From: Ascidia mentula
Lineage: Eukaryota; Chordata; Ascidiacea; Phlebobranchia; Ascidiidae
Assembly (NCBI GenBank): GCA_947561715.1
Contig: OX387198.1
Location: 7,440,001-7,504,000 of the forward strand
Length of the DNA: 64,000 nucleotides
Direction of reading: 5' to 3'
Made by a program: the position numbers and the translations under genes. How positions within the stretch are numbered: position 1 is the first letter of the stretch; every line of letters starts with the position of its first letter. The notes under the pieces were generated by a model, which did no database searches, was not told the DNA's origin, and saw nothing but the letters and a program-made list of their open reading frames with translations. Of the stretch, positions 1 to 56,218 are shown piece by piece.

Positions 1-9385
<9,385 letters not shown>

Positions 9386-11351: not shown

Positions 11352-11353
11352 AG
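11352..11353 (+). other. 3' splice acceptor just upstream of I-kappaB start
   Basis: A strong acceptor context (ATTCGCTTGCAG) ends 48 nt before the start codon at 11402. It means either a 5' UTR intron or, if the organism is a tunicate, a spliced-leader trans-splicing acceptor. The sequence alone cannot decide. Confidence 0.4.
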
Positions 11354-11401
11354 ATATATTTATTACTACATGTTGAAATCTGCATAATATTCTGCAAAAT
11401 A

Positions 11402-26886: not shown

Positions 26887-27811
26887 AACCCCCTATTGGA
26901 CGATATTTACATTTCCCAAAACATTCGATACTGAGCCCGTTTTAAAGCGAGTATTTGTTCTGTTAAAAAGGACGTTTGATTATGGTTTAATTTGTTCAAC
27001 ACGCTTGTGTACCAAAGCACACAAATGCGCTGATGCCCAAATTGGACTTTGTATTCGCAGCGAGTGAAAAGCGGAGCCTGGCCTTTTGTGTATGTTTTAC
27101 CTTCTATTGTTAAATACAAAAGCGCCCGCCATTCGATCCAAGTATATACTGCCAACACGTTCCCATCCTTTGTATGTGGGTGAACATGTAATGAATATTC
27201 TAAAGAGCGACAGGCTGTGTGTCTACACCGATTAGACTAAAGCCATTTTTAAAATCGAAATTAAATCTCATAATTTAGCATCTAGGCAAAACGCGACTGT
27301 GACTGCAGCGAACCGGATCGTTGATGCTTGGTTTAAAGTAAATTTTTAATTTATAGGTGTAACTTAACGTACTCTAACGCCGATACTCAGGATACGTATA
27401 ACAACCTGTAAATCAGGGGCGTAAGGAAAACTGATTACATGGATGAAATCCCCCTCATTAAGTTTCCTGAAAGCGCTCTAACGCACTGAAAACCCCAGCA
27501 CGTGATATATAACACGTCGACAGCACGTTCGATCACAATTTTTGCAATATCATCGCTTGGCCAGTGCGGAGAATGTATCTGAACACACCAGACACGCATT
27601 CTATATCCCCTGCGCCAGACACGCCCACGTTTGTATAACGTGAATACAAAGGCAAGGAGTCTGAAAATAGACCTGCTTGCGTAGTGCCGAGTGTCGACGT
27701 GACGCACAATTTTGCGTCAGCACGCTTAGCGCAGTAACTCGGCCGTGACGGTGCCTTTGTACCTCTGCCCTTGGGCTAGAAAGAGAAATTCCTCTACCGG
27801 GGTTTTACGCC

Positions 27812-30214
27812 GGGATGTGGAGGGGAAACTTGCCCACCTGCGGGCGAAAAAAGACGTGTCTCACGTTTAGGTGGGAGTTTAAACTTATTTGCCCGGGGCG
27901 CGGTGTGTTGTTTTTAGCTTTGAACTTTACACACAGTCGCCACACTAGTTCCTGCTTCGAGCGGTTTTATTGTCGAGCGACATTTGTATCATTTCTCTGT
28001 ATTCGGAAGAGGTATACACGAATATCTGCTTTCCCTTTCGTTTCGGGTGCAAAACACAACATGGAAGTGCAGGAAAAAAGAAACACTGTTTTCCTTCCAC
28101 AAAGGGCATCTTTCTAGGAGCTGAACCTTAACTGCCGTAAGCCGATAACTGCGTTGGACCCACGTACCTGGTAATAAGCTTTAGGGTTAAAATGTTCTCA
28201 AAGGACAAAGGTTGGTTAAGCTATAGCGTTGTTTGGTGACGAGGGGAAAGTTTTATAAAGCATCGTGCATGGAATGATTTATTTCCCGAAAGCTGATGCC
28301 GGGTTCATCTCGTTGTTGTACAAACAGTATCGAGTCATTCCAATAAACAGGATAGGATCGCATTTCGGCAACCAAGCTTAATCCATCTTAACCGCGTTTC
28401 GTTTTCCACTTTAACTATACGCAGCCCGCAAGCCCGCAGTATTTCCACAAAAATCAATACGCGATGACTGGCTGTTATTAGAAGGAAAGGTTTACGGCTG
28501 TGGGACCCATTCAAGGCAGCATGTTTGCCCGTTTCTGTACCACGTTTGCACGGCAACGTAGCAAAACGAAACTGCCACACAGTAGGTCTTGCGCCATCGT
28601 CCAAAGGCTGAGTCACGACCACGCGGTGAAGTCAAACAAAGAAATGTGACGAGGGCGGGTAGATTTGTGTCGCCATGACGACAAACAAGAAGCAAGACCG
28701 CTTTTCACAACTTTCGTTTCCGATGCTTACGGGATTTTTGGTTGCTGCATTATTTGGTGCCCTTGGCAACAGCAGAAGGGAAACGAAATCTTGTTGTTTG
28801 TAACGAAAACAAGAAATGGGATCCATATTCCTACCGGTGTCTTCGAAGCTGGCGTGGAGAGTATGCAATACTGCCCAGCTTTTCCATTGATTTTCCAGAG
28901 TGAATGTGAACGTAACTTTTTAAAAACTTGTTCTATGACTTGTAAGGTTTAGCAAACTCACACTTTGCGGTAAGCTGCTGCAAAAAAATGATATTTAGTT
29001 CTATTGCACCCGAAAGGAAAATATCGTTTTGTAACGAAATACGACCAAATGCACCAGGAATGTAACACCAAAGATTCAACTTTACACAATCGCCCTCTAG
29101 CCACAAATCAATGACCATCGGTTTCAGGATTGCATTATAGTCGACGCCGCAAATGGGTTTAGCAGAACGTTGCACGCATTATACAGGCCATAATATCAAA
29201 CACAAAACATTTAAGTGAAATTATCGAATGCTTTTTGCTACAATGCAATTTACTGATTAACAAATACATTCGACAGATATCATGTTTTTTGGGATCACAC
29301 CAGAATTTTAATCCATCGGGTTCAGGTTTCTCGATCAGGTTTTCTGCTTGGTATATGCTGGGTTAAGATTTTCGCACTGGTCCAACATGGCTCTATGCTG
29401 ACGTCTACCGGCCGTATTGCAATTGCGTCAGTTACGTTTGAGCATAATTTTAGTGTTTCTGCGCGTTACGTTTGTACGAAATCAAATTAAGAAGATACTT
29501 TATTTTTTAAGCATTAGAAATTATTCCGAACAAGAACGTAACCGTGCTATCACAAGCACACGTATTTATGTTTCCATTAGTATGAACATAGCTTTGAAGA
29601 CACAAATGTTAAAATATTTAGGACGGAAGTAACGTTTTGTTAAACGCGTTCATCGTCAAATGAGATTTATTTGCAATTTGGATCGTTCTTGAAGATGACG
29701 TTCAACGCAAAGCCCTCACCAAAACGCCAAAACGGTTGGCCAAAACGGGACGAATTCTAGGAACTCGTGAAAATGTCAAAAGCAAAAGGTTCTTCAAGCC
29801 AACTTCTATTTACAGCGTTTGAAGTGTCAATTCCTACCGAGCGCATACAAGGTCGCAGAACGCTCTGGCGAGAATTCCAGTAAGAAAGATTTGTCTATCG
29901 AAAGACCATTGGCACGGTCTAGGCACGCTGGAGCTGAAATGAGGGGCAATACAGCCAACTTGAATAGTTGGAAATACCACGACCGGAAGCACCTGCAAGC
30001 AACTGAACGACTTTTAGGCGCACTCCGAGGTTCATAACAACTTGAATGGTTCTGCAAAGACTACACAGCGCCAGCTTGCAAGTAAAATACGCAAAAAAAT
30101 CGACCATTAATATTCAGTTGTTTCGTTGCGGGTGTTTCCACTTGTTAAAGGGTCACCGTTGAGCTAGTTAGTTTTTCGGGTCTGAGTTTAGATTTTATTG
30201 GTTTTTATTTTGCA
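27812..30214 (+). other. Non-genic 5' part of repeat unit 1
   Basis: About 2.4 kb before the gene of unit 1; equivalents precede each of the other genes. Frames are shared between copies only because the copies are near-identical, and several are shifted or closed in one or another copy, so coding is not shown. It should include the promoter of the CUB-Sushi gene. Confidence 0.5.
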
Positions 30215-30250
30215 GTTCAACGACAAATAAATCAATATTTTGTCACTGTT

Positions 30251-33045
30251 ATGGGTTTCCAAAGGAAAGCTGTGCGACTTTTGTTGGGGTTTTGCCTTTT
30301 GGTGATCGGCGCCCAAGCGGGCAACGGTAAGATGTTAGTCAATTGCGAGATGATGTTTGTTGGTTGTGTAATAAACTTTCTGGTGCTGGCGTTTTGTTTT
30401 TTCCAAATACTACAACTTCGTGATGTAAAACGAGAAACAAAGCTTCTTTTGCAGAATAAAAGCATACCAGTTACTTACACCTGTTTTACCCAAAGCCATT
30501 GCAACATTTATCGCGCAGAAATCAAGCTGATCAAAGACAGTGACGGTTTTGAGTCGCCAACGAAGCCGAACAGAGATATAACTTCCACCCACTTAATTAA
30601 GGCCAAAAGAGGCAGAAGGATTTCAGTACAATTCGACGAACTTGATCTTGACTCTGCAGATGGTGACATGGTTACAGTAAGTTGTTCTTACTAATAACCA
30701 TACATAACACAAGACACAATACTTTAAACTTTAGTATGAGGAATAACTGGAAATCCACAAAGAAAGGTAACACTTTGATATTATCTTTCAACTTTACGCT
30801 GCCGCGACCGCATCACAGATAACAAGCTGCACGTCGACTTTCTAGTAAATGTGTTTTCAATGTTTTAAGGAAGGGCAACCCGCATTGCAAACGTAAAAAG
30901 CAAAACAACTAAATTATGTTCACTCTATAAATAGTATTGGTAAGATATCGCTTGTGTGTAGGTGAAGGACGGGCGTTCTAGCACTCTCTATCACGTCTAC
31001 ACAAGGAATAACAATGATAGAAGAATTCACCTGGTTGTTGAAGACGCGTCAGGACGAGGGTAAGAACTGGTTCGGGATTTGCATAAAATACAATTAATGC
31101 CAACGAAGTGCATTCTGCTCAGCGGAGGGAGTGCAGACCGTGTGGTGGAAGAGCCGGTGGTGTTCCACGCTCAAACCAAGAGAGTGTTCGTCACCTACTA
31201 CACAGAAAATTCGAGAAACAAAGCAGGATTTCGAGCCAGATATGAAAGTAAGTCATTGGCGCCTTGAAATAAGATGACATAAGGAGTTTTGCGACTCATG
31301 CATCGAGCGTAATTGAATCACGCTTTGTCGTTTTCACATTTTTTACATTTTAGACGCTTTGCTTCGAATTTTCAAGATTAATTACGGACTTATGTGTTGA
31401 AACATGAATATATATTTGGAGAAATACGTAAATAATGGGATATTTTTTGTTGATATGACAAGGTTACTGAAAGAACATTCACAACGCTATTTCGCACCAT
31501 ATTAGCCAAATTTCCTATGAATTCTGGTACTGAAAGCTGGTGTCGGAAGATTTCTTTAACTACTAATGTTTTTCAGCCTACCCAGACAACCTATGCTCAG
31601 TGTCTGACCTAAGCGTCAGAGACCCGAATCCCTCTTGCGACGGTTATGAAATCGCTCCAGTGGCCACTAGATGCTCCCACAGAATACAATGTAAAGAAAA
31701 CTATGAACAATACGGGTATGTTGAGGGCGCCTGACAGCATCGGTTAAGCGCCCGAACCATTCACCAAGTACAAAAACTGATCGGGATTGTTACTCAGAAT
31801 AACCTGGGTTCGAATTCCTGTGAGGTTAAATAAAACGGGTATTAGTTTCGCGGGGTAGACTATCTCATGCGAAGCATTTGTCCAAGGGTTTCGAATGCCG
31901 CTTTGATATTTTTAAAGAAACAAAATAATAAGAACATGAAGCTGAAAGCTTGTGACAGCAAATGTGATTCTTACATCAATTTACTACATCACAACTTTAC
32001 ACCGGAAAATAATTTCTGTTTGCTGAATTGTAGGAGTGCATTATGTGTTGCTGGAAGTTGGAGGGACAATACGACTTGTCTGCCTAAGGAAACTCTCGTT
32101 GAACAATGCACAATCGATGAAACAGGACTGGTAAGGATGTTATCTTGCGTTGGTGAAATATTCTTTACGAGAATGGACGCAAATGGATAATACATTAAAC
32201 ATTGCACAAACGTCTATTAAATGTGAACTGTTATTAGGGTTACTGGTAATTATTTTAAAGCAAATTATTACTTGACCTTCGTTTGAGGCGAACGGAAATA
32301 ATTTGGATATTTGTTTGGTTAGTCACACTGACTTTTTAACAAACCTGACTTTTTAGAACCGCGTCATATCCTGAAAATAATCCGTGTTTGATGAAAAACT
32401 AAGTACGTTGAGATAAGATAACTGAGCACGGAAGTCCATAAGAAGCAAATTTCTTAGAAATAAGCACCGTCACCCTGATTATTGAATGTATTTCTAAAAA
32501 CAGAACACAGACTGCCCGTTCAAGATTGAGGAACTGGTGGAGTTTTACGCAAAAACAGACGACAGTGGTATGATCGGCATGGATGTTGAACAAGGGCTGG
32601 GCAGGTCTTGGCAAAGCGGCTTTCGATCATCCTGTACCGACAAAGTTTGTCAAAAAATTGGCGACACCTACATAATTAGCTGCTATCGTCTTGGTGAGTC
32701 TCCCTGCTTAGGAAATGATTATAAACGTGTGAGCGTGAAGCAGCTTGTGCATTGTCGCAATGTATTTATTTGTATACATCCTATATATAGGATTTTAGCG
32801 TATCCTACAAGCAGGTTAAGGAATACATTTCAGTGTGTCACATGTAACAAATGATAATTACTGCAAAAAAACCCGAAACACGATTGCGTGCACGTTGTTT
32901 GAACAAAACTTACCACTACAGAAATATGGTTGTTAGCATATTGTGGTAATCACGGTGCTACTTTACAGCTGATTATGAGAAACGTCGAATGTGCAGGATC
33001 TGTCAATATTATATATGCAAAAATCCTTGGGTCGCCACGGGCTGA
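30251..33045 (+). CDS. Secreted CUB and Sushi-like domain protein, array copy 1
   Basis: Predicted extracellular protein of 335 residues; binding partner unknown. Exons: 30251-30326, 30471-30676, 30962-31059, 31123-31247, 31577-31715, 32034-32130, 32504-32693, 32969-33045, all GT-AG with consistent phases. Residues 1-23 form a signal peptide (basic MGFQRKAVR, then a hydrophobic core ending GAQA). Residues about 26-168 fit a CUB domain: FESPTKPN near the start, GRRISVQFDELDL, DGDMVTVKDG, and the closing strand KRVFVTYYTENS...AGFRARYE. It has only two cysteines (residues 30 and 36). Residues 189-230 resemble a Sushi/CCP module (spaced Cys, GSALCVAGSW). The tail (248-335) has seven cysteines and no recognised domain. 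A strong acceptor (TTTTTATTTTGCAG, ending 30215) lies 35 nt before the start codon. The name is descriptive; no orthologue is recognised. Confidence 0.85.
31807..31818 (+). repeat. tRNA-like B box in intron 5 of CUB gene (SINE remnant?)
   Basis: GGTTCGAATTCC matches the pol III B-box consensus. About 50 nt upstream, CGGTTAAGCG is a poor A-box match. Equivalent sequence sits in the same intron of all five copies. It is best read as a tRNA-derived SINE remnant carried by the ancestral unit. No tRNA cloverleaf was found. Confidence 0.35.
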
Positions 33046-33125
33046 TCTCCTTTCAGAAACGAATTTCATCAGATCGCATTGGATTTTGGACAAACGTTTA
33101 ATTTGTTTTCTTGAATGTACATTGC

Positions 33126-33131
33126 AATAAA
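33126..33131 (+). terminator. Polyadenylation signal of array gene 1 at unit border
   Basis: AATAAA is 80 bp after the stop codon, and the next repeat unit begins 7 bp further on. The equivalent hexamers for copies 2 to 5 are at 38491-38496, 43816-43821, 49156-49161 and 56207-56212. Confidence 0.65.
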
Positions 33132-33998
33132 TATACCGGGATGTGGAGGGGAAACTTGCCCACCTGCGGGCGAGAAAAGACGTGTCTCACGTTTAGGTGG
33201 GAGTTTAAACTTATTTGCCCGGGGCGCGGTGTGTTGTTTTTAGCTTTGAACTTTACACACAGTCGCCACACTAGTTCCTGCTTCGAGCGGTTTTATTGTC
33301 GAGCGACATTTGTATCATTTCTCTATATTCGGAAGAGGTATACACGAATATCTGCTTTTCCTTTCGTTTCGGGTGCAATACACAACATGGAAGTGCAGGA
33401 AAAAAGAAACACTATTTTCCTTCCACAAAGGGCATCTTTCTAGGAGCTGAACATTAACTGCCTTAGGCCGATAACTGCGTTGGACCCACGTACCTGGTAA
33501 TGAGCTTTAGGGTTAAAATGTTCTCAAAGGACAAAGGTTGGTTAAGCTAGCGTTGTTTGGTGAAGAGGGGAAAGTTTTATAAAGCATCGTGCATGGAATG
33601 ATTTATTTCCCGAAAGCTGATGCCGGGTTCATCTCGTTGTTGTACAAATAGTATCGAGTCATTCCAGTAAACAGGATAGGATCGCATTTCGGCAACCACG
33701 CTTAATCTATCTTAACCGCGTTTCGTTTTCCACTTCAACTGTACGCAGCGCGCAAGCCCGCTGTATTTCCACAAAAATCAATACGCGATGACTGGCTGTT
33801 ATTGGAAGGAAAGGTTTACGGCTGTGCGACCCATTCAAGGCAACATGTGTGCCCGTTTCTGTACCACGTTTGCACGGCAACGTAGCAACACGAAACTGCC
33901 ACACAGTGGGTCTTGCGCCATCGTCCAAAGGCTGAGTCACGACCACGCGGTGAAGTCAAACAAAGAAATGTGACGAGGGCGGGTAGATTTGTGTCGCC

Positions 33999-34226
33999 AT
34001 GACGACAAACAAGAAGCAAGACCGCTTTTCACAACTTTCGTTTCCGATGCTTACGGGATTTTTGGTTGCTGCATTATTTGGTGCCCTTGGCAACAGCAGA
34101 AGGGGAACGAAACCTGTTGTTCGTAACGAAAACAAGAAATGGGATCCATATTCCTACCGGTGTCTTCGAAGCTGGCGTGGAGAGTATGCAATACTGCCCA
34201 GCCTTTTAATAGATTTTCCAGAGTGA
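33999..34226 (+). CDS. Possible 75-aa single-pass membrane microprotein (array unit 2)
   Basis: An ATG in good context (GTCGCCATGA) opens a 75-codon frame with a charged N-terminus, one hydrophobic stretch (FPMLTGFLVAALFGALG) and a basic C-terminal half. The same frame is open in units 3 (39365-39592) and 4 (44689-44916). In unit 1 a single-base length change shifts it downstream of the hydrophobic stretch (start 28675), and in unit 5 (start 50028) it ends early. Being open in three of five near-identical copies is weak evidence for coding. No family is recognised. Confidence 0.2.
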   Translation: MTTNKKQDRFSQLSFPMLTGFLVAALFGALGNSRRGTKPVVRNENKKWDPYSYRCLRSWRGEYAILPSLLIDFPE

Positions 34227-35569
34227 ATGTGAACGTAACTTTTTAAAAACTTGTTCTATGACTTGTAAGGTTTAGCAAACTCACACTTTGCGGTAAGCTG
34301 CTACAACAAAATGATATTTAGTTCTATTGCACCCGAAAGGAAAATATCGTTTTGTAACAAAATACGACTAAATGCACCAGGAATGTAACACCAAAGATTC
34401 AACTTTACACAATCGCCCTCTAGCCACAGATCAATGACCATCGGTTTCAGGATTGCATTATAGTCAACGCCGCAAACGGGTTTAGCAGAACGTTGCACGC
34501 ATTATACAGGCCATAATATCAAACGCAGGACATTTAAGTGAAATTATCGAATGCTTTTTGCCACAATGCAATTTACTGATTAACAAATACATTCGACAGA
34601 TATCATGTTTTTTGGGATCACACCAGAATTTTAATCCATCGGGTTCAGGTTTCTCGATCAGGTTTTCTGCTTGGTATATGCTGGGTTAAGATTTTCGCAC
34701 TGGACCAACATGGCTCTATGCTGACGTCTACCGGCCGTATTGCAATTGCGTCAGTTACGTTTGAGCATAATTTTAGTGTTTCTGCGCGACACGTTTGTAC
34801 GAAATCAAATTAAGAAGATACTTTATTTTTTAAGCATTAGAAATTATTCCGAACAAGAACGTAACCGTGCTATCACAAGCACACGTATTTATGTTTCCAT
34901 TAGTATGAACATAACTTTGAAGACACAAATGTTAAAATATTTAGGACGGAAGTAACGTTTTGTTAAACGCGTTCATCGTCAAATGAGATTTATTTGCAGT
35001 TTGGATCGTTCTTAAAGGTGACGTTGAACGCAAAGCCGCCAAAACGCCAAAACGGTTGGCCAAAACGGGACAAATTCTAGGAACTCGTGAAAATGTCAAA
35101 AGCAAAAGGTTCTTCAAGCCAACTTCTATTTACAGCGTTTGAAGTGTCAATTCCACCGAGCGCATACAAGGTCGCAGAACGCTCTGGCGAGAATTCCAGT
35201 AAGAAAGATTTGTCTATCGAAAGACCATTGGCACGATCTAGGCACGCTGGAGCTGAAATGAGGGGCAATACAGCCAACTTGAATAGTTGGAAATACCAGG
35301 ACAGGAAGCACCTGCAAGCAACTGAACGACTTTCAGGCGCACTCCGAGGTTCATAACAACTTGAATGGTTCTGCAAAGACTACACAGCGCCAGCTTGCAA
35401 GTAAAATACGCAAAAAAATCGACCATTAATATTCAGTTGTTTCGTTGCGGGTGTTTCCACTTGTTAAAGGGTCACCGTTGAGCTAGTTAGTTTTTTGTGT
35501 CTGAGTTTAGATTTTATTGGTTTTTATTTTGCAGTTCAACGACAAATAAATCAATATTTTGTCACTATT

Positions 35570-38410
35570 ATGGGTTTCCAAAGGAAAGCTGTGCGACTTT
35601 TGTTGGGGTTTTGCCTTTTGGTGATCGGCGCCCAAGCGGGCAACGGTAAGATGTTAGTCAATTGCGAGATGATGTTTGTTGGTTGTGTAATAAACTTTCT
35701 GGTGCTGGCGTTTTGTTTTTTCCAAATACTACAACTTCGTGATGTAAAACGAGAAACAAAGCTTCTTTTGCAGAATAAAAGCATACCAGTTACTTACACC
35801 TGTTTTACCCAAAGCCATTGCAACATTTATCGCGCAGAAATCAAGCTGATCAAAGACAGTGACGGTTTTGAGTCGCCAACGAAGCCGAACAGAGATATAA
35901 CTTCCACCCACTTAATTAAGGCCAAAAGAGGCAGAAGGATTTCAGTACAATTCGACGAACTTGATCTTGACTCTGCAGATGGTGACATGGTTACAGTAAG
36001 TTGTTCTTACTAATAACCATACATAACACAAGACACAATACTTTAAACTTTAGTATGAGGAATAACTGGAAATCCACAAAGAAAGGTAACACTTTGATAT
36101 TTTCTTCCAACTTTACGCTGCTGCGACCGCATCACAGATAACAAGCTGCACGTCGACTTTCTAGTAAATGTGTTTTCAATGTTTTAAGGAAGGGCAACCC
36201 GCATTGCAAACGTAAAAAGCAAAACAACTAAATTATTTTCACTCTAAAATACTATTGGTAAGATATCGCTTGTGCGTAGGTGAAGGACGGGCGTTCTAGC
36301 ACTCTCTATCACGTCTACACAAGGAATAACAATGATAGAAGAATTCACCTGGTTGTTGAAGACGCGTCAGGACGAGGGTAAGAACTGGTTCGGGATTTGC
36401 ATTAAATACAATTAATGCCAACGAAGTGCATTCTGCTCAGCGGGGGGAGTGCAGACCGTGTGGTGGAAGAGCCGGTGGTGTTCCACGCTCAAACCAAGAG
36501 AGTGTTCGTCACCTACTACACAGAAAATTCGAGAAACAAAGCAGGATTTCGAGCCAGATATGAAAGTAAGTCATTGGCGCCTTGAAATAAGATGACATAA
36601 GGAGTTTTGCGACTCATGCATCGAGCGTAATTGAATCACGCTTTGTCGTTTTCACATTTTTTACATTTTAGACGCTTTGCTTCGAATTTTCAAGATTAAT
36701 TACGGACTTATGTGTTGAAACATGAATATATATTTGGAGAAATACGTAAATAATGGGATATTTTTTGTTGATATGACAAGGTTACTGAAAGAACATTCAC
36801 AACGCTATTTCGCACCATATTAGCCAAATTTCCTATTAATTCTGGTACTGAAAGCTGGTGTCGGAAGATTTCTTTAACTACTAATGTTTTTCAGCCTACC
36901 CAGACAACCTATGCTCAGTGTCTGACCTAGACGTCAGAGACCCGAATCCCTCTTGCGACGGTTATGAAATCGCTCCAGTGGCCACTAGATGCTCCTACAG
37001 AGTACAATGTAAAGAAAACTATGAACAATACGGGTACGTTGATGGCGCCTGACAACATTGGTTAAGCGCCCGACCTATTTAACAAAAACTGATCGGGATT
37101 GTTACTCAGGGCAACCTGGGTTCGAATTCCTGTGACGTTAAATAAAACGGGTATTAGTTTCGCGGGGTAGACTATCTCATACGAAGCATTTGTCCAAGGG
37201 TTTCGAATGCCGATTGGATATTTTTACAGAAACAAAATAATAAGAACATGAAGCTGAAAGCTTGTGACAGCAAATGTGATTCTTACATCAATTTACTACA
37301 TCACAACTTTACACCGGAAAATAATTCCTGTTGCTGAATTGCAGGAGTGCATTATGTGTTGCTGGAAGTTGGAGGGACAATACGACTTGTCTGCCTAAGG
37401 AAACTCTCGTTGACCAATGCACAATCGATGAAACAGGGCTGGTAAGGATGTTATCTTGCGTTGGAAATAATCTTTACGAGAATGGACGCAAATGGATAAT
37501 ACATTAAACATTGCACAAACGTCTATTAAATGTGAACTGTTATTAGGGTTATTGGTAATTACCAAAAATAAACACGCCGCCCATTCGTATCAAAACTTTT
37601 TTCAGAAACCTCACCTGATTTTAAAGCAAATTATTACTTGACCTTCGTTTGAGGCGAACGGAAATAATTTGGATATTTGTTTGGTTAGTCACACTGACTT
37701 TTTGACAAACCTGACTTTTTGGAACCGCGTCATATCCTGAAAATAATCCGTGTTTGATGAAAAACTAAGTACGTTGAGATAAGATAACTGAGCACGGAAG
37801 TCCATAAGAAGTAAATTTCTTAGAAATAAGCACCGTCACCCTGATTATTGAATGTATTTCTAAAAACAGAACACAGACTGCCCGTTCAAGATTGAGGAAC
37901 TGGTGGTGTTTTACGCAAAAACAGACGACAGTGGTATGATCGGCATGGATGTTGAACAAGGGCTGGGCAGGTCTTGGCAAAGCGGCTTTCGATCATCCTG
38001 TACCGACAACGTTTGTCACAAAATTGGCGACACCTACATAATTAGCTGCTATCGTCTTGGTGAGTCTCCCTGCTTAGGAAATGATTATAAACGTGTGAGC
38101 GTGAAGCAGCTTGTGCATTGTCGCAATGTATTTATTTGTATACATCCTATATACAGGATTTTAGCGTATCCTACAAGCAGGTTAAGGAATACATTTCAGT
38201 GTGTCACATGTAACAAATGATAATTACTGCAAAAAACCCGAAACACGATTGCGTGCACGTTGTTTGAACAAAACTTACCACTACAGAAATATGGTTGTTA
38301 GCATATTGTGGTAATCACGGTGCTACTTTACAGCTGATTATGAGACACGTCGAATGTGCAGGATCTGTCAATATTATATATGCAAAAATCCTTGGGTCGC
38401 CACGGGCTGA
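35570..38410 (+). CDS. Secreted CUB and Sushi-like domain protein, array copy 2
   Basis: Same eight-exon structure and 335-residue length as copy 1. Exons: 35570-35645, 35790-35995, 36280-36377, 36441-36565, 36895-37033, 37345-37441, 37870-38059, 38334-38410. The signal peptide and CUB domain are identical by eye to copy 1. Differences seen: Ser to Asp, His to Tyr and Ile to Val in the Sushi-like exon; Glu to Asp near residue 238; Glu to Val at 260; DKVCQK to DNVCHK at 293-298; and Lys to Thr at 315. An extra 57 bp in intron 6 (near 37561-37618) is shared with copies 4 and 5 only. The reading frame is intact. Confidence 0.85.
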
Positions 38411-43735: not shown

Positions 43736-46263
43736 TCTCCTTTCAGAAACGAATTTCATCAGATCGCATTGGATTTTGGACAAACGTTTAATTTGTTTTC
43801 TTGAATGTACATTGCAATAAATATACCGGGATGTGGAGGGGAAACTTGCCCACCTGCGGGCGAGAAAAGACGTGTCTCACGTTTAGGTGGGAGTTTAAAC
43901 TTATTTGCCCGGGGCGCGGTGTGTTGTTTTTAGCTTTGAACTTTACACACAGTCGCCACACTAGTTCCTGCTTCGAGCGGTTTTATTGTCGAGCGACATT
44001 TGTATCATTTCTCTGTATTCGGAAGAGGTATACACGAATATCTGCTTTTCCTTTCGTTTCGGGTGCAATACACAACATGGAAGTGCAGGAAAAAAGAAAC
44101 ACTGTTTTCCTTCCACAAAGGGCATCTTTCTAGGAGCTGAACATTAACTGCCTTAGGCCGATAACTGCGTTGGACCCACGTACCTGGTAATGAGCTTTAG
44201 GGTTAAAATGTTCTCAAAGGACAAAGGTTGGTTAAGCTAGCGTTGTTTGGTGAAGAGGGGAAAGTTTTATAAAGCATCGTGCATGGAATGATTTATTTCC
44301 CGAAAGCTGATGCCGGGTTCATCTCGTTGTTGTACAAATAGTATCGAGTCATTCCAGTAAACAGGATAGGATCGCATTTCGGCAACCACGCTTAATCTAT
44401 CTTAACCGCGTTTCGTTTTCCACTTCAACTGTACGCAGCGCGCAAGCCCGCTGTATTTCCACAAAAATCAATACGCGATGACTGGCTGTTATTGGAAGTA
44501 AAGGTTTACGGCTGTGCGACCCATTCAAGGCAACATGTGTGCCCGTTTCTGTACCACGTTTGCACGGCAACGTAGCAACACGAAACTGCCACACAGTGGG
44601 TCTTGCGCCATCGTCCAAAGGCTGAGTCACGACCACGCGGTGAAGTCAAACAAAGAAATGTGACGAGGGCGGGTAGATTTGTGTCGCCATGACGACAAAC
44701 AAGAAGCAAGACCGCTTTTCACAACTTTCGTTTCCGATGCTTACGGGATTTTTGGTTGCTGCATTATTTGGTGCCCTTGGCAACAGCAGAAGGGGAACGA
44801 AACCTGTTGTTCGTAACGAAAACAAGAAATGGGATCCATATTCCTACCGGTGTCTTCGAAGCTGGCGTGGAGAGTATGCAATACTGCCCAAACTTTTAAT
44901 TGATTTTGCAGAGTGAATGTGAACGTAACTTTTTAAAAACTTTTTCTATGACTTGTAAGGTTTAGCAAACTCACACTTTGCGGTAAGCTGCTACAAAAAA
45001 AAAGGATATTTAGTTCTATTGCACCCGAAAGGAAAATATCGTTTTGTAACGAAATACGACTAAATGCACCAGGAATGTAACACCAAAGATTCAACTTTAC
45101 ACAATCGCCCTCTAGCCACAGATCAATGGCCATCGATTTCAGGATTGCATTATAGTCGACGCCGCAAATGGGTTTAGCAGAACGTTGCACGCATTATACG
45201 GGCCATAATATCAAACACAAAACATTTAAGTGAAATTATCGAATGCTTTTTGCTACAATGCAATTTACTGATTAACAAATACATTCGACAGATATCATGT
45301 TTTTTTGGGATCACACCAGAATTTTAATCCATCGGGTTCAGGTTTCTCGATCAGGTTTTCTGCTTGGGATATGCTTGGTTAAGATTTTCGCACTGGACCA
45401 ACATGGCTCTATGCTGACGTCTACCGGCCGTATTGCAATTGCGTCAGTTACGTTTGAGCATAATTTTAGTGTTTCTGCGCGTTACGTTTGTACGAAATCA
45501 AATTAAGAAGATACTTTATTTTTTAAGCATTAGAAATTATTCCGAACAAGAACGTAACCGTGCTATCACAAGCACACGTATTTATGTTTCCATTAGTATG
45601 AACATAGCTTTGAAGACACAAATGTTAAAATATTTAGGACGGAAGTAACGTTTTGTTAAACGCGTTCATCGTCAAATGAGATTTATTTGCAGTTTAGATC
45701 GTTCTTAAAGGTGACGTTGAACGCAAAGCCGCCAAAACGCCAAAACGGTTGGCCAAAACGGGACAAATTCTAGGAACTCGTGAAAATGTCAAAAGCAAAA
45801 GGTTCTTCAAGCCAACTTCTATTTACAGCGTTTGAAGTGTCAATTCCTACCGAGCGTATGCAAGGTCGCAAACCGCTCTGGCGAGAATTCCAGTAAGAAA
45901 GATTTGTCTATCGAATGACCATTGGCACGATCTAGGCACGCTGGAGCTGAAATGAGGGGCAATACAGCCAACTTGAATAGTTGGAAATACCACGACCGGA
46001 AGCACCTGCAAGCAACTGAACGACTTTCAGGCGCACTCCGAGGTTCATAACAACTTGAATGGTTCTGCAAAGACTACACAGCGCCAGCTTGCAAGTAAAA
46101 TACGCAAAAAAATCGACCATTAATATTCAGTTGTTTCGTTGCGGGTGTTTCCATTTGTTAAAGGGTCACCGTTGAGCTAGTTAGTTTTTCGTGTCTGAGT
46201 TTAGATTTTATTGGTTTTTATTTTGCAGTTCACCGACAAATAAATCAATATTTTGTCACTGTT

Positions 46264-49075
46264 ATGGGTTCCCAAAGGAAAGCTGTGCGACTTTTGTTGG
46301 GGTTTTGCCTTTTGGTGATCGGCGCCCAAGCGGGCAACGGTAAGATTTTAGTAAATTGTGAGATGATGTTTGTTGGTTGTGTAATTAGCGTTCTGGTGCT
46401 GGCGTTTTGTTTTTATACATACCAGTTACTTACACCTGTTTTACCCAAAGTCATTGCAACATTTATCACGCAGAAATCAAGCTGATCAAAGACAGTGACA
46501 GTTTTGAGTCGCCAACGAAGCCGAACAGGGATATAACTTCCACCCACTTAATTAAGGCCAAAAGAGGCAGAAGGATTTCCGTACAATTCGACGAACTTGA
46601 TCTTGACTCTGCAGATGGTGACATGGTTACAGTAAGTTGTTCTTACTAATAACCATACATAACACAAGACACAATACTTTAAACTTTAGTATGAGGAATA
46701 ACTGGAAATCCACAAAAAAGGTAACACTTTGATATTATCTTTCAACTTTACGCTGCCGCGACCGCATCACAGATAACAAGCTGCACGTCGACTTTCTAGT
46801 AAATGTGTTTTCAATGTTTTAAGGAAGGGCAACCCGCATTGCAAACGTAAAAAGGCAAAACAACTAAATTATTTTCACTCTATAAATCCTATTGGTAAGA
46901 TATCGCTTGTGTGTAGGTGAAGGACGGGCGTTCTAGCACTCTCTATCACGTCTACACAAGGAATAGTAATGATAGAAGAATTCACCTGGTTGTTGAAGAC
47001 GCGTCAGGACGTGGGTAAGAACTGGTTCGGGATTTGCATTAAATACAATTAATGCCAACGAAGTGCATTCTGCTCAGCGGGGGGAGTGCAGACCGTGTGG
47101 TGGAAGAGCCGCTGGTGTTCCACGCTCAAACCAAGCGAGTGTTCGTCACCTACTACACAGAAAATTCGAGAAACAAAGCAGGATTTCGAGCCAGATATGA
47201 AAGTATGTCATTGGCGCCTTGAAATAAGATGACATAAAGAGTTTTGCGACTCATGCATCGAGCGTAATTGAATCACGCTTTGTCGTTTTCACATTTTTTA
47301 CTTTTTAGACGCTTTGCTTCGAATTTTCAAGATAAATTACGGAATTATGTGTTGAAACATGAATATATATTTGGAGAAATACGTAAATAATGGGATATGT
47401 CGCAATTTTATTGATAATGACAAGGTTACTGAAAGAGAAAATTATTAGAAAACCCTTCAAGAACATTCACAACGCTATTTCGCACCATATTAGCCAAATT
47501 TCCTATTAATTCTGGTACTGAAAGCTGGTGTCGGAAGATTTCTTTAACTACTAATGTTTTTCAGCCTACCCAGACAACCTATGCTCAGTGTCTGACCTAA
47601 GCGTCAGAGACCCGAATCCCTCTTGCGACGGTTATGAAATCGCTCCAGTGGCCACTAGATGCTCCCACAGAATACAATGTAAAGAAAACTATGAACAATA
47701 CGGGTACGTTGATGGCGCCTGACAACATCGGTTAAGCGCCCGACCTATTTACCAAAAACTGATCGGGATTGTTACTCAGGGCAACCTGGGTTCGAATTCC
47801 TGTGAGGTTAAATAAAACGGGTATTAGTTTCGCGGGGTAGACTATCTCATACGAAGCATTTGTCCAAGGGTTTCGAATGCCGCTTGGATATTTTTACAGA
47901 AACAAAATAATAAGAACATGAAGCTGAAAGCTTGTGACAGCAAATGGGATTCTTACATTAATTTACTACATCACAACTTTACACCGGAAAATAATTCCTG
48001 TTGCTGAATTGCAGGAATGCATTATGTGTTGCTGGAAGTTGGAGGGACAATACGACTTGTCTGCCTAAGGAAACTCTCGTTGAACAATGCACAATCGATG
48101 AAACAGGGCTGGTAAGGATGTTATCTTGCGTTGGAAATAATCTTTACGAGAATGGACGCAAATGGATAATACATTAAACATTGCACAAACGTCTATTAAA
48201 TGTGAACTGTTATTAGGGTTATTGGTAATTACCAAAAATAAACACGCCGCCCATTCGTATCAAAACTTTTTTCAGAAACCTCACCTGATTTTAAAGCAAA
48301 TTATTACTTGACCTTCGTTTGAGGCGAACGTAAATAGTTTGAATATTTGTTTTGGTTATAGTCACACTGACTTTTTAATAAACCTCTAGAACGGCGTCAT
48401 ATCCTGAAAAAATCCGTGTTTGATGAAAAACTAAGTACGTTGAGATAAGATAACTGAGCACGCAAGTCCAAAGGAAGCAAATTTCTTAGAAATAAGCACC
48501 GTCACCCTTATTATTTTGAATGTATTTCTAAAAACAGAACACAGACTGCCCGTTCAAGATTGAGGAACTGGTGGTGTTTTACGCAAAAACAGACGACAGT
48601 GGTATGATCGGCATGGATGTTGAACAAGGGCTGGGCAGGTCTTGGCAAGGCGGCTTTCGATCAACCTGTACCGACGAAGTTTGTCACAAAATTGGCGACA
48701 CCTACATAATTAGCTGCAATCGTCTTGGTGAGTCTCCCTGCTTAGGAAATGATTATAAACGTGTGAGCGTGAAGCAGCTTGTGCATTGTCGCAATGTATT
48801 TATTTGTATACATCCTATAGGATTTTAGCGTATCCTACAATCAGGTTAAGGAATACATTTCCGTGTGTCACATGTAACAAATGATAATTACCGCAAAAAA
48901 ACCCGAAACACGATTGCGTGCACGTTGTTTGAACAAAACTTACCACTACAGAAATATGGTTGTTAGCATATTGTGGTAATCACGTTGCTACTTTACAGGT
49001 AATTATCAGAAACGTCGAATGTGCAGGGTCTGTCAATATTATATATGCTCAAATCCTTGGGTCGCCACGGGCTGA
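46264..49075 (+). CDS. Secreted CUB and Sushi-like domain protein, array copy 4
   Basis: Exons: 46264-46339, 46426-46631, 46917-47014, 47078-47202, 47565-47703, 48015-48111, 48538-48727, 48999-49075; 335 residues, frame intact. Intron 1 is 86 bp rather than 144 bp because a block holding a TTCTTTTGCAG decoy acceptor is absent; copy 5 shares this. That comparison fixes the true exon 2 acceptor at ATACCAG. Changes relative to copy 1 include Phe3 to Ser, Gly to Ser in the DSD stretch, Asn to Ser in exon 3, Val to Leu in exon 4, Ser to Asn opening exon 6, and a tail reading DEVCHK ... SCNRL then GNYQKRR. Lys328 is Ser. Confidence 0.85.
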
Positions 49076-49167
49076 TCTCCTTTCAGAAACAAATTTCATC
49101 AAATCGCATTGGATTTTGGACAACTGTTTAATTTGTTTTCTTGAATGTAAATTGCAATAAATAAACC

Positions 49168-50294
49168 GGGATGCGGAGGGGAAACTTGCCCACCTGCGGG
49201 CGAGAAAAGACGTGTCTCACGTTTAGGTGGGAGTTTAAACTTATTTGCCCGGGGCGCGGTGTGTTGTTTTTTATCCCTGAACTTTACACACAGTCGCCAC
49301 ACTAGTTCCTGCTTCGAGCGGTTTTATTGTCGAGCGACATTTGTATCATTTCTCTGTATTCGGAAAAGGTGTACACGAATATCTGCTTTCCCTTTCGTTT
49401 CGGGTGCAAAACACAACATGGAAGTGCAGGAAAAAATAAACATGTTTTCCTTCGACAAAGGGCATCTTTATAGGAGCTGAACCTTAACTGCCTTAGGCCG
49501 ATAACTGCGTTGGACCCACGTACCTGGTAATAAGCTTTAGGGTTAAAATCTTCTCAAAGGACAAAGGTTGGCTAAGCTGGCGTTGTTTGGTGAAGAGGGG
49601 AAAGTTTTATAAAGCATCGTGCATGGAATGATTTATTTCCCGAAAGCTGATGCCGGGTTCATCTCGTTGTTGTACAAATAGTATCGAGTCATTCCAGTAA
49701 ACAGGATAGGATCGCATTTCGGCAACCACGCTTAATCTATCTTAACCGCGTTTCGTTTTCCACTTCAACTGGACGCAGCGCGCAACCCCGCTGTATTTCC
49801 ACAAAAATCAATACGCGATGACTGGCTGTTATTGGAAGGAAAGGTTTACGGCTGTGGGACCCATTCAAGGCAACATGTGTGCCCGTTTCTGTACCACGTT
49901 TGCACGGCAACGTAGCAAAACGAAACTGCCACTCAGTGGTCTTGCGCCATCGTCCAAAGGCTGAGTCACGACCACGCGGTGAAGTCAAACAAAGAAATGT
50001 GACGAGGGCGGGTAGATTTGTGTCGCCATGACGACAAACAAGAAGCAAGACCGCTTTTCACAACTTTCGTTTCCGATGCTTACGGGATTTTTGGTTGCTG
50101 CATTATTTGGTGCCCTTGGCAACAGCAGAAGGGGAACGAAACCTGTTGTTCGTAACGAAAACAAGAAATGAGATCCATATTCCTACCGGTGTCCTCGTAG
50201 CTGGCGTGGAGAGTATGCAATACTGCCCAAACTTTTAATTGATTTTGAGTGAATGTGAACGTAACTTTTTAAAAACTTTTTCTATGACTTGTAA
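49168..50294 (+). other. 5' part of array unit 5 before transposon insertion
   Basis: Matches the first 1.1 kb of the other units, with the start variant (TTTTTTATCCCTGAAC) also seen in unit 3. It is separated from the rest of unit 5 by the element at 50295-52036; sequence then resumes at GGTTTAGCAAACTC with a 4-bp duplication. Confidence 0.85.
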
Positions 50295-52036
50295 CTCTTT
50301 CCACTCCGGACCATTTTCGCTGAACTGGCTCTAGAATCCGGGATTTTTGAGCAAAAATGACAATTTTCAAACACTTCCCATTTCGTGAATATATAAATTA
50401 AAGCGGTTACCAGTATCGCAAAAGAAAGGGTAAACCCCCGTGCTGTATCTAGCCAAGTTTCAGCTTGCTGCGAACGGTAGTTCGATAATTTTATGGCTTT
50501 CACCGATAGGACCTTTTTCAACTTTTTCCAAACTAGTGAAAATTGCTTGTTTTGGGGTATGGTTGCAAATGAAATACTCACGGCCCAATTGTAAGGTGTA
50601 ATAGTTAGATTTTTGGTGTGTAACACACCAAAGTAATGTGGGGTCAGGGAAAAATTACAATTCTTGTCCAGTGATAGTTGTTTTTATGTAACAGCCCATC
50701 GAATTTTCACATTTGTTCTGAAATATGGTGAAAAATCCAAAAAATATTTTTCTGAACTTTGTACATATCTAACTTACTTGTGAGGATTTTTTTGTACACA
50801 GGCTTTGTAGTGCTGTAGTATGCATTATGCAAACATCTATTTACAAAAATAAGTCAAAATCTGTTCAAAAATTTCTCAAATTTTCAAAAATGTCTTGTTA
50901 TACTGTTCGCATGTGTTCTTTTCTCCATCTATACATTCGAAATACTCACAAGCTGGTTTTTTCTTCAAAATAGTTCAAATTTTTACCAAATGGAGTACTA
51001 CAAGTGTGAATTTATGGAAAATTTTGACTTCACTGATAGCATGTGTAGTTTTTCCACAAAGACCCTTGCAAATCATGCATTTTTTAGTATTTTTCAAAAA
51101 ACAACCATGAAGAAATGAAAGAAGAGAAACAGAGTAAAAAAAGACTATACACAATATTCAACCATGTTGTGAAACTTTACATGCAATTGTTTACACATAA
51201 TGTCACACTGAATGTTTGATAACTGTATAAATTGCTTTTGAACTGCTCTGGCTGTTGTCTGAAGTTGCTCGACTGACCTTGTCGAAACCTTTCTTTGAAT
51301 GGAGAAATTGGATTGCATTTTCAACTGTGTTGTGGTTATGAAGGTTTCTTTGTGATATCCATGTATATTGTAATGCAAAAAAAGGTATTTGGGTCTGATA
51401 CTACAACTGGGACCAATTCATGTAACAACATTTTCTTGTCGTTTGATCTCAGAAATGCCCCCCACTTGCCATACTTTACCTCCAAATGAATTTTGGACCT
51501 GTTTTGCCAAAACTGCTTTTACACAGTACAAGGTTTTTCTTGATTCATGTACAAGCTGATTAATTACAGGACAATAATATCTAGCCGACTCATTCCTTTT
51601 CTACCACAAGAACCATTATCTTGCATTTGCTTCGCAGGCTTTATGACGTCACAGTGGACATTCAACACGCTCGTAATTTTTATGCCGAGGGTTCAAGCGA
51701 TCTCTGTACTTACAGTACCGATCCTATTTTCACTATTACAGCGCGTTGCTGGTCGTATTGCAACCAAAATATGTGAAAACAGTGCAAAACAACACCCAAA
51801 ATTTGCAAAAAAAATAGCGTTATATATGTTGACCAAAATTCATCAAAACATTATTGTAGACTTTTGTTGACGCAAGGAACTGTTTTTCCATCCTAGTACA
51901 TTCAAATGAATGTATTTTTGCGCTGCCAAGGCTTACGATTGCGACGCAATGACGATTTCATTTACCGTCTATATATAGACGCTTGGATTCTACGGCATGC
52001 GCGAAATCGTCTATAAGACGCTCGGGGTGGAAAGAG
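50295..52036. mobile_element. 1.74-kb DNA transposon with inverted ends, inserted in array unit 5
   Basis: Absent from the other four units at the same place, so both ends are exact. The left end is CTCTTTCCACTCCG and the right end CGGGGTGGAAAGAG, inverted repeats of 14 bp with one mismatch. The target GTAA (single in the other units) is duplicated at 50291-50294 and 52037-52040. A perfect 16-bp palindrome CGTCTATATATAGACG (51966-51981) and CGTCTATAAGACG (52010-52022) lie near the right end. Frames inside (for example 51547-51870) show no transposase motif I recognise, so it is probably non-autonomous. The 4-bp target recalls piggyBac-type elements, but their target is TTAA, so the family is left open. 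Confidence 0.85.
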
Positions 52037-53324
52037 GTAAGGTTTAGCAAACTCGCACTTTGCGGTAAGCTGCTACAAAAAAATGATATTTAGTTCTATT
52101 GCACCCGAAAGGAAAATATCGTTTTGTAACGAAATACGACTAAATGCACCAGGAATGTAACACCAAAGATTCAACTTTACACAATCGCCCTCTAGCCACA
52201 GATCAATGACCATCGATTTCAGGATTGCATTATAGTCAACGCCGCAAACGGGTTTAGCAGAACGTTGCACGCATTATACAGGCCATAATATCAAACACAG
52301 GACATTTAGGTGAAATTATCGAATGCTTTTTGCCACAATGCAATTTACTGATTAACAAATACATTCGACAGATATCATGTTTTTTGGGATCACACCAGAA
52401 TTTTAATCCATCGGGTTCAGGTTTCTCGATCAGGTTTTCTGCTTGGTATATGCTGGGTTAAGATTTTCGCACTGGACCAACATGGCTCTATGCTGACGTC
52501 TACCGGCCGTATTGCAATTGCGTCAGTTACGTTTGAGCATAATTTTAGTGTTTCTGCGCGTTACGTTTGTACGAAATCAAATTAAGAAGATACTTTATTT
52601 TTTAAGCATTAGAAATTATTCCGAACAAGAACGTAACCGTGCTATCACAAGCACACGTATTTATGTTTCCATTAGTATGAACATAGCTTTGAAGACACAA
52701 ATGTTAAAATATTTAGGACGGAAGTAACGTTTTGTTAAACGCGTTCATCGTCAAATGAGATTTATTTGCAGTTTGGATCGTTCTTAAAGATGACGTTCAA
52801 CGCAAAGCCTTCACCAAAACGCCAAAACGGTTGGCCAAAACGGGACAAATTCTAGGAACTCGTGAAAATGTCAAAAGCAAAAGGTTCTTCAAGCCAACTT
52901 CTTTTTACAGCGTTTGAAGTGTCAATCCTACCGAGCGTATGCAAGGTCGCAAACCGCTCTGGCGAGAATTCCAGTAAGAAAGATTTGTCTATCGAAAGAC
53001 CATTGGCACGATCTAGGCACGCTGGAGCTGAAATGAGGGGCAATACAGCCAACTTGAATAGTTGGAAATACCAGGACAGGAAGCACCTGCAAGCAACTGA
53101 ACGACTTTCAGGCGCACTCCGAGGTTCATAACAACTTGAATGGTTCTGCAAAGACTACACAGCGCCAGCTTGCAAGAACATTAATATTCAGTTGTTTCGT
53201 TGCGGGTGTTTCCACTTGTTAAAGGGTCACCGTTGAGCTAGTTAGTTTTTCGTGTCTGAGTTTAGATTTTATTGGTTTTTATTTTGCAGTTCACCGACAA
53301 ATAAATCAATATTTTGTCACTGTT

Positions 53325-56126
53325 ATGGGTTTCCAAAGGAAAGCTGTGCGACTTTTGTTGGGGTTTTGCCTTTTGGTGATCGGCGCCCAAGCGGGCAACG
53401 GTAAGATTTTAGTAAATTGTGAGATGATGTTTGTTGGTTGTGTAATTAGCGTTCTGGTGCTGGCGTTTTGTTTTTATACATACCAGTTACTTACACCTGT
53501 TTTACCCAAAGTCATTGCAACATTTATCACGCAGAAATCAAGCTGATCAAAGACAGTGACAGTTTTGAGTCGCCAACGAAGCCGAACAGGGATATAACTT
53601 CCACCCACTTAATTAAGGCCAAAAGAGGCAGAAGGATTTCCGTACAATTCGACGAACTTGATCTTGACTCTGCAGATGGTGACATGGTTACAGTAAGTTG
53701 TTCATACTAATAACCATACATAACACAAGACACAATACTTTAAACTTTAGTATGAGGAATAACTGGAAATCCACAAAAAAGGTAACACTTTGATATTATC
53801 TTTCAACTTTACGCTGCCGCGACCGCATCACAGATAACAAGCTGCACGTCGACTTTCTAGTAAATGTGTTTTCAATGTTTTAAGGAAGGGCAACCCGCAT
53901 TGCAAACGTAAAAAGGCAAAACAACTAAATTATTTTCACTCTATAAATCCTATTGGTAAGATATCGCTTGTGTGTAGGTGAAGGACGGGCGTTCTAGCAC
54001 TCTCTATCACGTCTACACAAGGAATAGTAATGATAGAAGAATTCACCTGGTTGTTGAAGACGCGTCAGGACGTGGGTAAGAACTGGTTCGGGATTTGCAT
54101 TAAATACAATTAATGCCAACGAAGTGCATTCTGCTCAGCGGGGGGAGTGCAGACCGTGTGGTGGAAGAGCCGCTGGTGTTCCACGCTCAAACCAAGCGAG
54201 TGTTCGTCACCTACTACACAGAAAATTCGAGAAACAAAGCAGGATTTCGAGCCAGATATGAAAGTATGTCATTGGCGCCTTGAAATAAGATGACATAAAG
54301 AGTTTTGCGACTCATGCATCGAGCGTAATTGAATCACGCTTTGTCGTTTTCACATTTTTTACTTTTTAGACGCTTTGCTTCGAATTTTCAAGATAAATTA
54401 CGGAATTATGTGTTGAAACATGAATATATATTTGGAGAAATACGTAAATAATGGGATATGTCGCAATTTTATTGATAATGACAAGGTTACTGAAAGAGAA
54501 AATTATTAGAAAACCCTGCAAGAACATTCACAACGCTATTTCGCACCATATTAGCCAAATTTCCTATTAATTCTGGTACTGAAAGCTGGTGTCGGAAGAT
54601 TTCTTTAACTACTAATGTTTTTCAGCCTACCCAGACAACCTATGCTCAGTGTCTGACCTAAGCGTCAGAGACCCGAATCCCTCTTGCGACGGTTATGAAA
54701 TCGCTCCAGTGGCCACTAGATGCTCCCACAGAATACAATGTAAAGAAAACTATGAACAATACGGGTATGTTGATGGCGCCTGACAACATCGGTTAAGCGC
54801 CCGACCTATTTACCAAAAACTGATCGGGATTGTTACTCAGGGCAACCTGGGTTCGAATTCCTGTGAGGTTAAATAAAACGGGTATTAGTTTCGCGGGGTA
54901 GACTATCTCATACGAAGCATTTGTCCAAGGGTTTCGAATGCCGCTTGGATATTTTTACAGAAACAAAATAATAAGAACATGAAGCTGAAAGCTTGTGACA
55001 GCAAATGTGATTCTTACATCAATTTACTACATCACAACTTTACACCGGAAAATAATTCCTGTTGCTGAATTGCAGGAATGCATTATGTGTTGCTGGAAGT
55101 TGGACGGACAATACGACTTGTCTGCCTAAGGAAACTCTCGTTGACCAATGCACAATCGATGAAACAGGGCTGGTAAGGATGTTATCTTGCGTTGGAAATA
55201 ATCTTTACGAGAATGGACGCAAATGGATAATACATTAAACATTGCACAAACGTCTATTAAATGTGAACTGTTATTAGGGTTATTGGTAATTACCAAAAAT
55301 AAACACGCCGCCCATTCGTATCAAAACTTTTTTCAGAAACCTCACCTGATTTTAAAGCAAATTATTACTTGACCTTCGTTTGAGGCGAACGGAAATAGTT
55401 TGAATATTTGTTTTGGTTATAGTCACACTGACTTTTTAATAAACCTCTAGAACGGCGTCATATCCTAAAAAAATCCGTGTTTGATGAAAAACTAAGTACG
55501 TTGAGATAAGATAACTGAGCACGCAAGTCCAAAGGAAGCAAATTTCTTAGAAATAAGCACCGTCACCCTTATTATATTGAATGTATTTCTAAAAACAGAA
55601 CACAGACTGCCCGTTCAAGATTGAGGAACTGGTGGTGTTTTACGCAAAAACAGACGACAGTGGTATGATTGGCATGGATGTTGAACAAGGGCTGGGCAGG
55701 TCTTGGCAAAGCGGCTTTCGATCAACTTGTACCGACAAGATTTGTCATAAAATTGGCCGCAACTTCATTTTTAGCTGCTACAGTATTCGTGAGTCTCCCT
55801 GCTTAGAAAATGATTATAAACGTGTGAGCGTGAAGCAGCTTGTGCATTGTCACAATATATTTATTTGTATACGATTTTAGCGTATCCTAAAATCAGGTTA
55901 AGGAATACATTTCCGTATGTCAATTGTAACAAATGATAATTACCGCAAAAAACCCGAAACACGATTGCGTGCACGTTGTTTGAACAAAACTTACCACTAC
56001 AGAAATATGGTTGTAAGCATATTGTGGTAATCACGTTGCTACTTTGCAGGTTATTATCAGAAACGTCGAATGTGCAGGATCTGTCAATATTATATATGCT
56101 CAAATCCTTGGGTCGCCATGGGCTGA
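53325..56126 (+). CDS. Secreted CUB and Sushi-like domain protein, array copy 5
   Basis: Exons: 53325-53400, 53487-53692, 53978-54075, 54139-54263, 54626-54764, 55076-55172, 55599-55788, 56050-56126; 335 residues, frame intact despite the transposon 1.3 kb upstream. Exons 1-6 are almost identical to copy 4 (Arg to Thr in exon 6 is new). The end of exon 7 differs sharply: DKICHKIGRNFIFSCYSI in place of DEVCHKIGDTYIISCNRL, followed by RYYQKRR and a terminal Met-Gly. The transposon separates this gene from the distal part of the upstream segment present in other units, so its expression could differ. Confidence 0.85.
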
Positions 56127-56218
56127 TCTCCTTTCAGAAACGAATTTCATCAGATCGCATTGGATTCTGTACAAATGTTTAATTTGTTTTCTTGAATGTA
56201 AATTGCAATAAATAAACC

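Follow-up and report, generated by a model that had tools for sequence, protein, structure and literature searches.

A five-copy tandem array of predicted secreted CUB-domain genes in the ascidian Ascidia mentula

Introduction

CUB domains typically carry two disulfides, a feature that is usual and not defining, and CUB domains without cysteines are known. The spermadhesins, mammalian seminal proteins encoded by a tandem gene cluster, consist of little more than one CUB domain. Two ascidian systems also invite comparison. The Botryllus fester gene shows duplicated haplotypes, an excess of replacement changes in some exons and an exon encoding a short consensus repeat; its 11 exons undergo heavy alternative splicing and its product is predicted to have transmembrane domains, and its authors consider that unequal crossover or conversion may have caused its homogeneity (these points from the part of PMC3549757 used here). 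The Ciona protein vCRL1 is polymorphic and was once proposed to act in recognition; the part of PMC9265791 used here describes it as a Sushi protein.

In this study, we describe a locus on chromosome 2 (C2) of the solitary ascidian Ascidia mentula that recalls each of these systems and departs from each. Its predicted proteins match the CUB profile above the curated cut-off, as CUB proteins do, but they differ in lacking any cysteine over most of the CUB half and in continuing into a 14-cysteine region that no profile matches. Like the spermadhesins, they are small CUB proteins, predicted to be secreted, whose genes lie in a tandem cluster; secreted CUB proteins with tandemly amplified genes are a kind already known. 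However, the 14-cysteine region beyond the CUB domain sets them outside the spermadhesins. With fester the locus shares an ascidian host, duplication and, as a candidate feature, a replacement excess confined to part of the gene, whereas fester, as far as the cited part of its description goes, is a membrane protein, and here we find a CUB domain and no transmembrane segment by hydropathy in the five copies. Finally, vCRL1 is likewise an ascidian protein for which recognition has been proposed, but the cited account of it includes no layout of CUB domain plus 14 cysteines.

Results

Five units in a head-to-tail array

We analysed a stretch of 64,000 nucleotides, hereafter the window; coordinates are window positions unless a chromosome or contig is named. 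The mitochondrial contig of this genome (C79, 19,461 bp) encodes a COX1 whose AGA and AGG codons fall at positions where glycine is expected, in keeping with the ascidian code. BLAST self-comparison resolved positions 27810-56218 into five head-to-tail direct repeats with one predicted gene per unit. The unit borders come from BLAST self-comparison and unit alignment.

27810..33135, plus strand: unit 1, left edge, with a 5' part distinct from the other four copies
33136..38500, plus strand: unit 2
38501..43825, plus strand: unit 3
43826..49166, plus strand: unit 4
49167..56218, plus strand: unit 5, right edge, longer than the others through a transposon, with the array's highest divergence at its 3' end
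50295..52036, no strand assigned: DNA transposon of 1742 bp, located 5' of gene 5 within unit 5 and absent from the other four units
33126..33131, plus strand: candidate poly(A) signal AATAAA just 5' of the unit junction; also at 38491, 43816, 49156 and 56207

The original prediction gave 5.3 kb for every unit. This length holds for units 1-4, and unit 5 reaches 7.05 kb because of the inserted transposon. The pieces matched between units by BLAST are 91-98.5% identical. Each unit carries about 2.4 kb of upstream sequence (transposon excluded), one whole gene and, near its end, an AATAAA as candidate poly(A) signal. Judging from this layout, each new copy is therefore probably a complete transcription unit. 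When we searched the genome (195.8 Mb in 79 contigs) with 601 bases taken from the 5' part of unit 1, all five matches lay inside the array; together with five coding sequences free of internal stops, this bears out the prediction of a five-copy tandem array with intact frames.

The transposon has terminal inverted repeats matching at 13 of 14 positions and a GTAA target duplication. Among the 57 matches listed (self included), eight are full length at 96-97% identity, seven of them on other contigs and one elsewhere on chromosome 2. The transposon is young. Its longest frame has 129 residues and no Pfam match, so that it looks non-autonomous.

Several other features lie in the window. Positions 1717-7159 hold a partial ABC transporter gene recognised by its Pfam domains, ABCC-like by eye. 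An ankyrin-repeat gene occupies 11249-15058, with ankyrin repeats matched at 14834-15058; its first long frame, assigned to this gene by eye, contains DSGYDS, which we take to resemble an IkappaB phosphorylation site. Frames with LDL-receptor class B repeats at 59848-61659 are LRP5/6-like by eye, and frames at 57573-58231 look by eye like a retroelement remnant, suspected to be of the Penelope type, with no Pfam match at E up to 0.01. The ABC transporter, ankyrin-repeat and LDL-receptor-class-B neighbours do not decide between an immune and a gamete role for the array. Rfam at gathering scores and ARAGORN each returned 0 matches in the window.

One predicted eight-exon gene per unit

Gene 1 was predicted from splice sites and open frame, and this single exon model was transferred to all five copies by alignment with no base altered.

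30251..33045, plus strand: gene 1, 335 residues, predicted
30251-30326, 30471-30676, 30962-31059, 31123-31247, plus strand: gene 1 exons 1-4, predicted
31577-31715, 32034-32130, 32504-32693, 32969-33045, plus strand: gene 1 exons 5-8, predicted
30471..31247, plus strand: exons 2-4 of gene 1, coding for the CUB domain (Pfam PF00431); the other four genes alike
32504..33045, plus strand: exons 7-8 of gene 1, coding for the cysteine-rich tail, the fastest-changing part between copies
35570..38410, plus strand: gene 2, 8 exons, 335 residues, predicted
40942..43735, plus strand: gene 3, 8 exons, 335 residues, predicted
46264..49075, plus strand: gene 4, 8 exons, 335 residues, predicted
53325..56126, plus strand: gene 5, 8 exons, 335 residues, predicted

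In all five copies the predicted coding sequence is 1008 nt long and encodes 335 residues without an internal stop, and all 35 introns have GT-AG borders, in agreement with the expectation of one complete eight-exon gene per unit. An acceptor for exon 2 at 30454 was rejected since it broke the frame; the acceptor ending at 30470, present in 5/5 copies, gives 335 residues in each. The acceptor that seemed obvious at first lies in a 58-bp piece of intron 1 found in copies 1-3 and missing from copies 4 and 5. Intron 1 measures 144 bases in copies 1-3, where it is open in frame and a transcript retaining it would encode 48 more residues, mostly hydrophobic, and 86 bases in copies 4 and 5, where retention would shift the frame. 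Upstream of the gene, the 35 bases before the start codon follow directly on a good-looking 3' splice site (30200-30250; exon part 30216-30250). This site is kept in copies 1-5 and suggests either a 5' untranslated intron or spliced-leader trans-splicing.

The five predicted proteins start with a hydrophobic stretch, and mean hydropathy does not exceed 0.43 in any 19-residue window starting after residue 30; membrane-spanning segments of the fester kind were thus not found in the five copies. This profile is consistent with the small secreted protein with signal peptide that had been proposed.

A CUB half, a candidate Sushi-like middle and an unmatched tail

The CUB assignment that the original prediction made is well founded. 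The PF00431 profile matches at 32.1 bits against a curated cut-off of 21.4 (E 1.5e-7), and all six family members, that is the five copies and the paralogue described below, have a CUB match (E up to 10), the best at 4.3e-8. Two stretches match the model, the better one covering residues 49-103. In the five copies there is no cysteine between residues 37 and 174, and hence the usual CUB disulfides are absent; the assignment rests on the profile match and not on cysteines. About 165 residues with 14 cysteines follow on the C-terminal side of the CUB domain.

The middle part had been described as a Sushi-like module, which the searches bear out only in part. Pfam gave no Sushi (PF00084) match in any of the six members or in two middle regions searched alone, with filters that drop most matches of E above 0.1, and the genome's own Sushi profile (30 domains) scored the middle part at only -2.9 to 1.4 bits. 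We also asked for the motif of a C-terminal Sushi half, with C, Y, G, C and G-x-W following one another. Comparison with the 30-domain profile gave a score of 19.3 over 24 columns with a probability of only 21%, and 0 of 200 shuffles with cysteines held fixed reached this score. Factor H was among the entries that a PDB profile search listed, starting at E 0.0018, alongside unrelated proteins. On these sequence comparisons, the middle part bears a resemblance to the C-terminal half of a Sushi domain, and we do not assign it to Sushi. Three further candidates were set aside. Regular expressions for a Sushi half-domain splice pattern were too loose (34 matches for the 3' half, many of them within whole domains, and 0 for the 5' half); an EB module in the middle region of the paralogue (E 0.0038, 17.7 bits, below the cut-off of 24.3) was too weak; so was a CRF-binding-protein match (E 0.14, in one of six members).

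The tail alone had no credible Pfam or PDB match, the one PDB match having an E value of 0.99. Above threshold, the Pfam and PDB searches name CUB only, in keeping with the predicted cysteine-rich tail without recognised fold and with no named family being recognised for this architecture. The genome yields at least 150 CUB matches and at least 150 Sushi matches (150 scored of 876 and of 1589 candidates, respectively), and therefore the presence of either domain alone tells little. Among the Sushi matches listed, a run of similar exons about 277 bases apart at 13007914-13016574 of contig C67 is an internal tandem repeat.

A paralogue on the same chromosome

An eight-exon paralogue lies at 4934609-4937663 of chromosome 2, about 2.5 Mb from the array. 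Its exon phases are those of the array genes (0,1,0,2,1,2,0,1), and exon lengths are equal in four of eight (76, 125, 139 and 97 nt), with 190 vs 187 nt in exon 7. The two proteins share 44% identity, and all 14 post-CUB cysteines align, including the seven of the tail, which are kept in 6/6 genes. By part, identity is lowest in the tail (27/85 aligned residues, against 60/126 in CUB and 42/78 in the middle). Mean hydropathy in the paralogue reaches 1.0 in a window at residue 289. Because the paralogue combines identical phases and all 14 post-CUB cysteines with only 44% identity, the gene appears old and its amplification young. The non-coding divergence among copies is 1.3-3.2%. The predicted recent amplification is supported.

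With E up to 10, the 335-residue array protein found 44 matches in the genome, namely the 40 array exons (8 x 5) and four paralogue exons; the paralogue protein found 33, of which 8 were its own and 25 in the array. The family thus has at least six genes here, search counts being lower bounds. One scan of viral contigs revealed no relatives. In the literature, titles and the starts of abstracts contained no paper on the gene, which does not prove that none exists.

Copies are mosaics of one another

Sites with two states form mosaics along the unit: 53 join copies 4 and 5, 25 join copies 1 and 3, and fewer join other pairs. In the 3' half of the unit the copies fall into two groups, 1-3 and 4-5. 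The 3' end of copy 5 differs from copies 1-3 at 17-24 positions per 300 columns, the array maximum, and the 5' part of copy 1 mostly shows 7-14 differences per 300 against 0-9 among the other four copies; inner stretches of the array also reach 16. Such divergence at the edges would be expected from exchange between inner units, clearly so at the right edge and more weakly at the left. Unequal crossing-over and gene conversion between units could generate both the copy number and the mosaics. Allelic differences in ascidians can also reach the 1.3-3.2% range, and two groups in the 3' half are compatible with two haplotypes, a point to which we return below.

Replacement changes concentrate in the tail

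We divided the protein into a CUB part (residues 1-169), a middle (170-247) and a tail (248-335, the last 88), along exon borders, although these borders were chosen after the differences had been seen. The neutral class comprised silent and neighbouring intron sites, and for the tail also 3' untranslated sites, intron 6 being counted in both the middle and the tail classes. Among the five copies, variable codons with replacement and silent changes number 5 and 6 in the CUB part, 7 and 1 in the middle, and 20 and 2 in the tail. The CUB part is constrained, with 5/392 replacement sites varying against 34/876 neutral sites (p = 0.013, odds ratio 0.32). Replacement in the middle is indistinguishable from neutral (8/182 against 43/727, p = 0.59). 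In the tail, replacement change between the seven conserved cysteines is above neutral, with 24/211 replacement sites varying against 44/763 neutral sites (odds ratio 2.1, p = 0.009), an excess that weakens without copy 5 (14/211 against 28/772, p = 0.08). Tail and CUB part differ from each other with p = 0.013, or p = 0.039 without copy 5. All these Fisher p-values are optimistic, as copies exchange sequence and sites are therefore not independent.

Over the last 51 codons of copy 5 silent change is raised too (4-5 of about 30 sites), and thus part of the tail excess may stem from relaxed constraint or from a divergent donor in gene conversion. Copies 1-3 are identical over residues 1-169, with tails 0 to 4 replacements apart, and pairwise tests among these three gave no significant tail excess. 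Pairwise tests of copies 4 and 5 against copies 1-3 point in the same direction as the site test, with which they overlap and of which they are not independent. Silent change against the paralogue is saturated, which precludes a rate test against it. Taken together, the suggested selection for diversity or dosage receives modest support for diversity, in the tail only, and dosage cannot be separated.

Discussion

We propose, with about even confidence, that the proteins encoded here are secreted and act in recognition or as effectors, each pairing a CUB scaffold that stays constant with a disulfide tail that diversifies, and that unequal exchange has amplified and partly homogenized the array and keeps it in flux. 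In the same reading, the array is young and still exchanging, and the underlying ascidian gene is older. In the proposed scenario, the signal peptide would take the protein out of the cell. The CUB half, by itself or together with the middle module, may bind an unchanging partner, for example matrix, cell surface or a glycan, and the disulfide-bonded tail may contact a changing target, by analogy with innate-immune or gamete recognition proteins.

A less probable but serious contender is dosage or neutral amplification, in which copies made by unequal crossing-over persist for their output or because they do no harm, with a loosely constrained tail. The near identity of copies 1-3 fits this explanation, and several other runs of similar exons occur among the Sushi matches listed in the genome, so the array by itself needs no special cause. 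However, relaxed constraint predicts change at the neutral rate, and the tail exceeds it, at least when copy 5 is included; moreover, a loose tail would not be expected to keep every one of its cysteines in six genes.

As a special case of the recognition reading, the protein might belong to gametes or the egg coat, with oocyte, follicle cell or testis as its source and sexual or self/non-self selection acting on it. Such a role is compatible with a scaffold that is conserved and a tail that changes, and a review of ascidian fertilization (PMC9265791) names gamete proteins with CUB domains, namely sea-urchin EBR1, HrOvochymase and HrProacrosin. None of the proteins described in the part of this review used here has the present layout, and vCRL1, a polymorphic Sushi protein first proposed for the role, was later tied, in the same source, to the blood system. 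We consider a gamete function unlikely. That alternative haplotypes were placed end to end is an unlikely source of the array, to which we give hardly any weight in spite of the allele-like divergence and the two groups noted above: two haplotypes cannot yield five distinct copies unless each was already multi-copy, the flanks are single-copy within the window, the transposon is in copy 5 only, the window has zero N and no gap, and the assembly, according to the part of PMC11109543 used here, was made from 74-fold HiFi data with QV 64.9 and purge_dups removal of haplotypic duplication.

If the preferred reading of a recognition or effector protein is pursued further, these genes could represent an undescribed ascidian family of secreted proteins with a CUB domain and 14 cysteines, in which a converting array of variable copy number and its tails set specificity in recognition between individuals or species, in blood or gametes; we hold this extension to be rather improbable. 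Should the tail be the contact surface, the locus would offer a natural series of a near-constant scaffold with several tails and an outgroup gene, and this in a chordate that lacks adaptive immunity. Ordinary long-read or amplicon sequencing would make it possible to follow both the number of copies and the sequence of their tails in populations. Should the tail not be the contact surface, the locus would still provide a clear example of a young array exchanging between its units.
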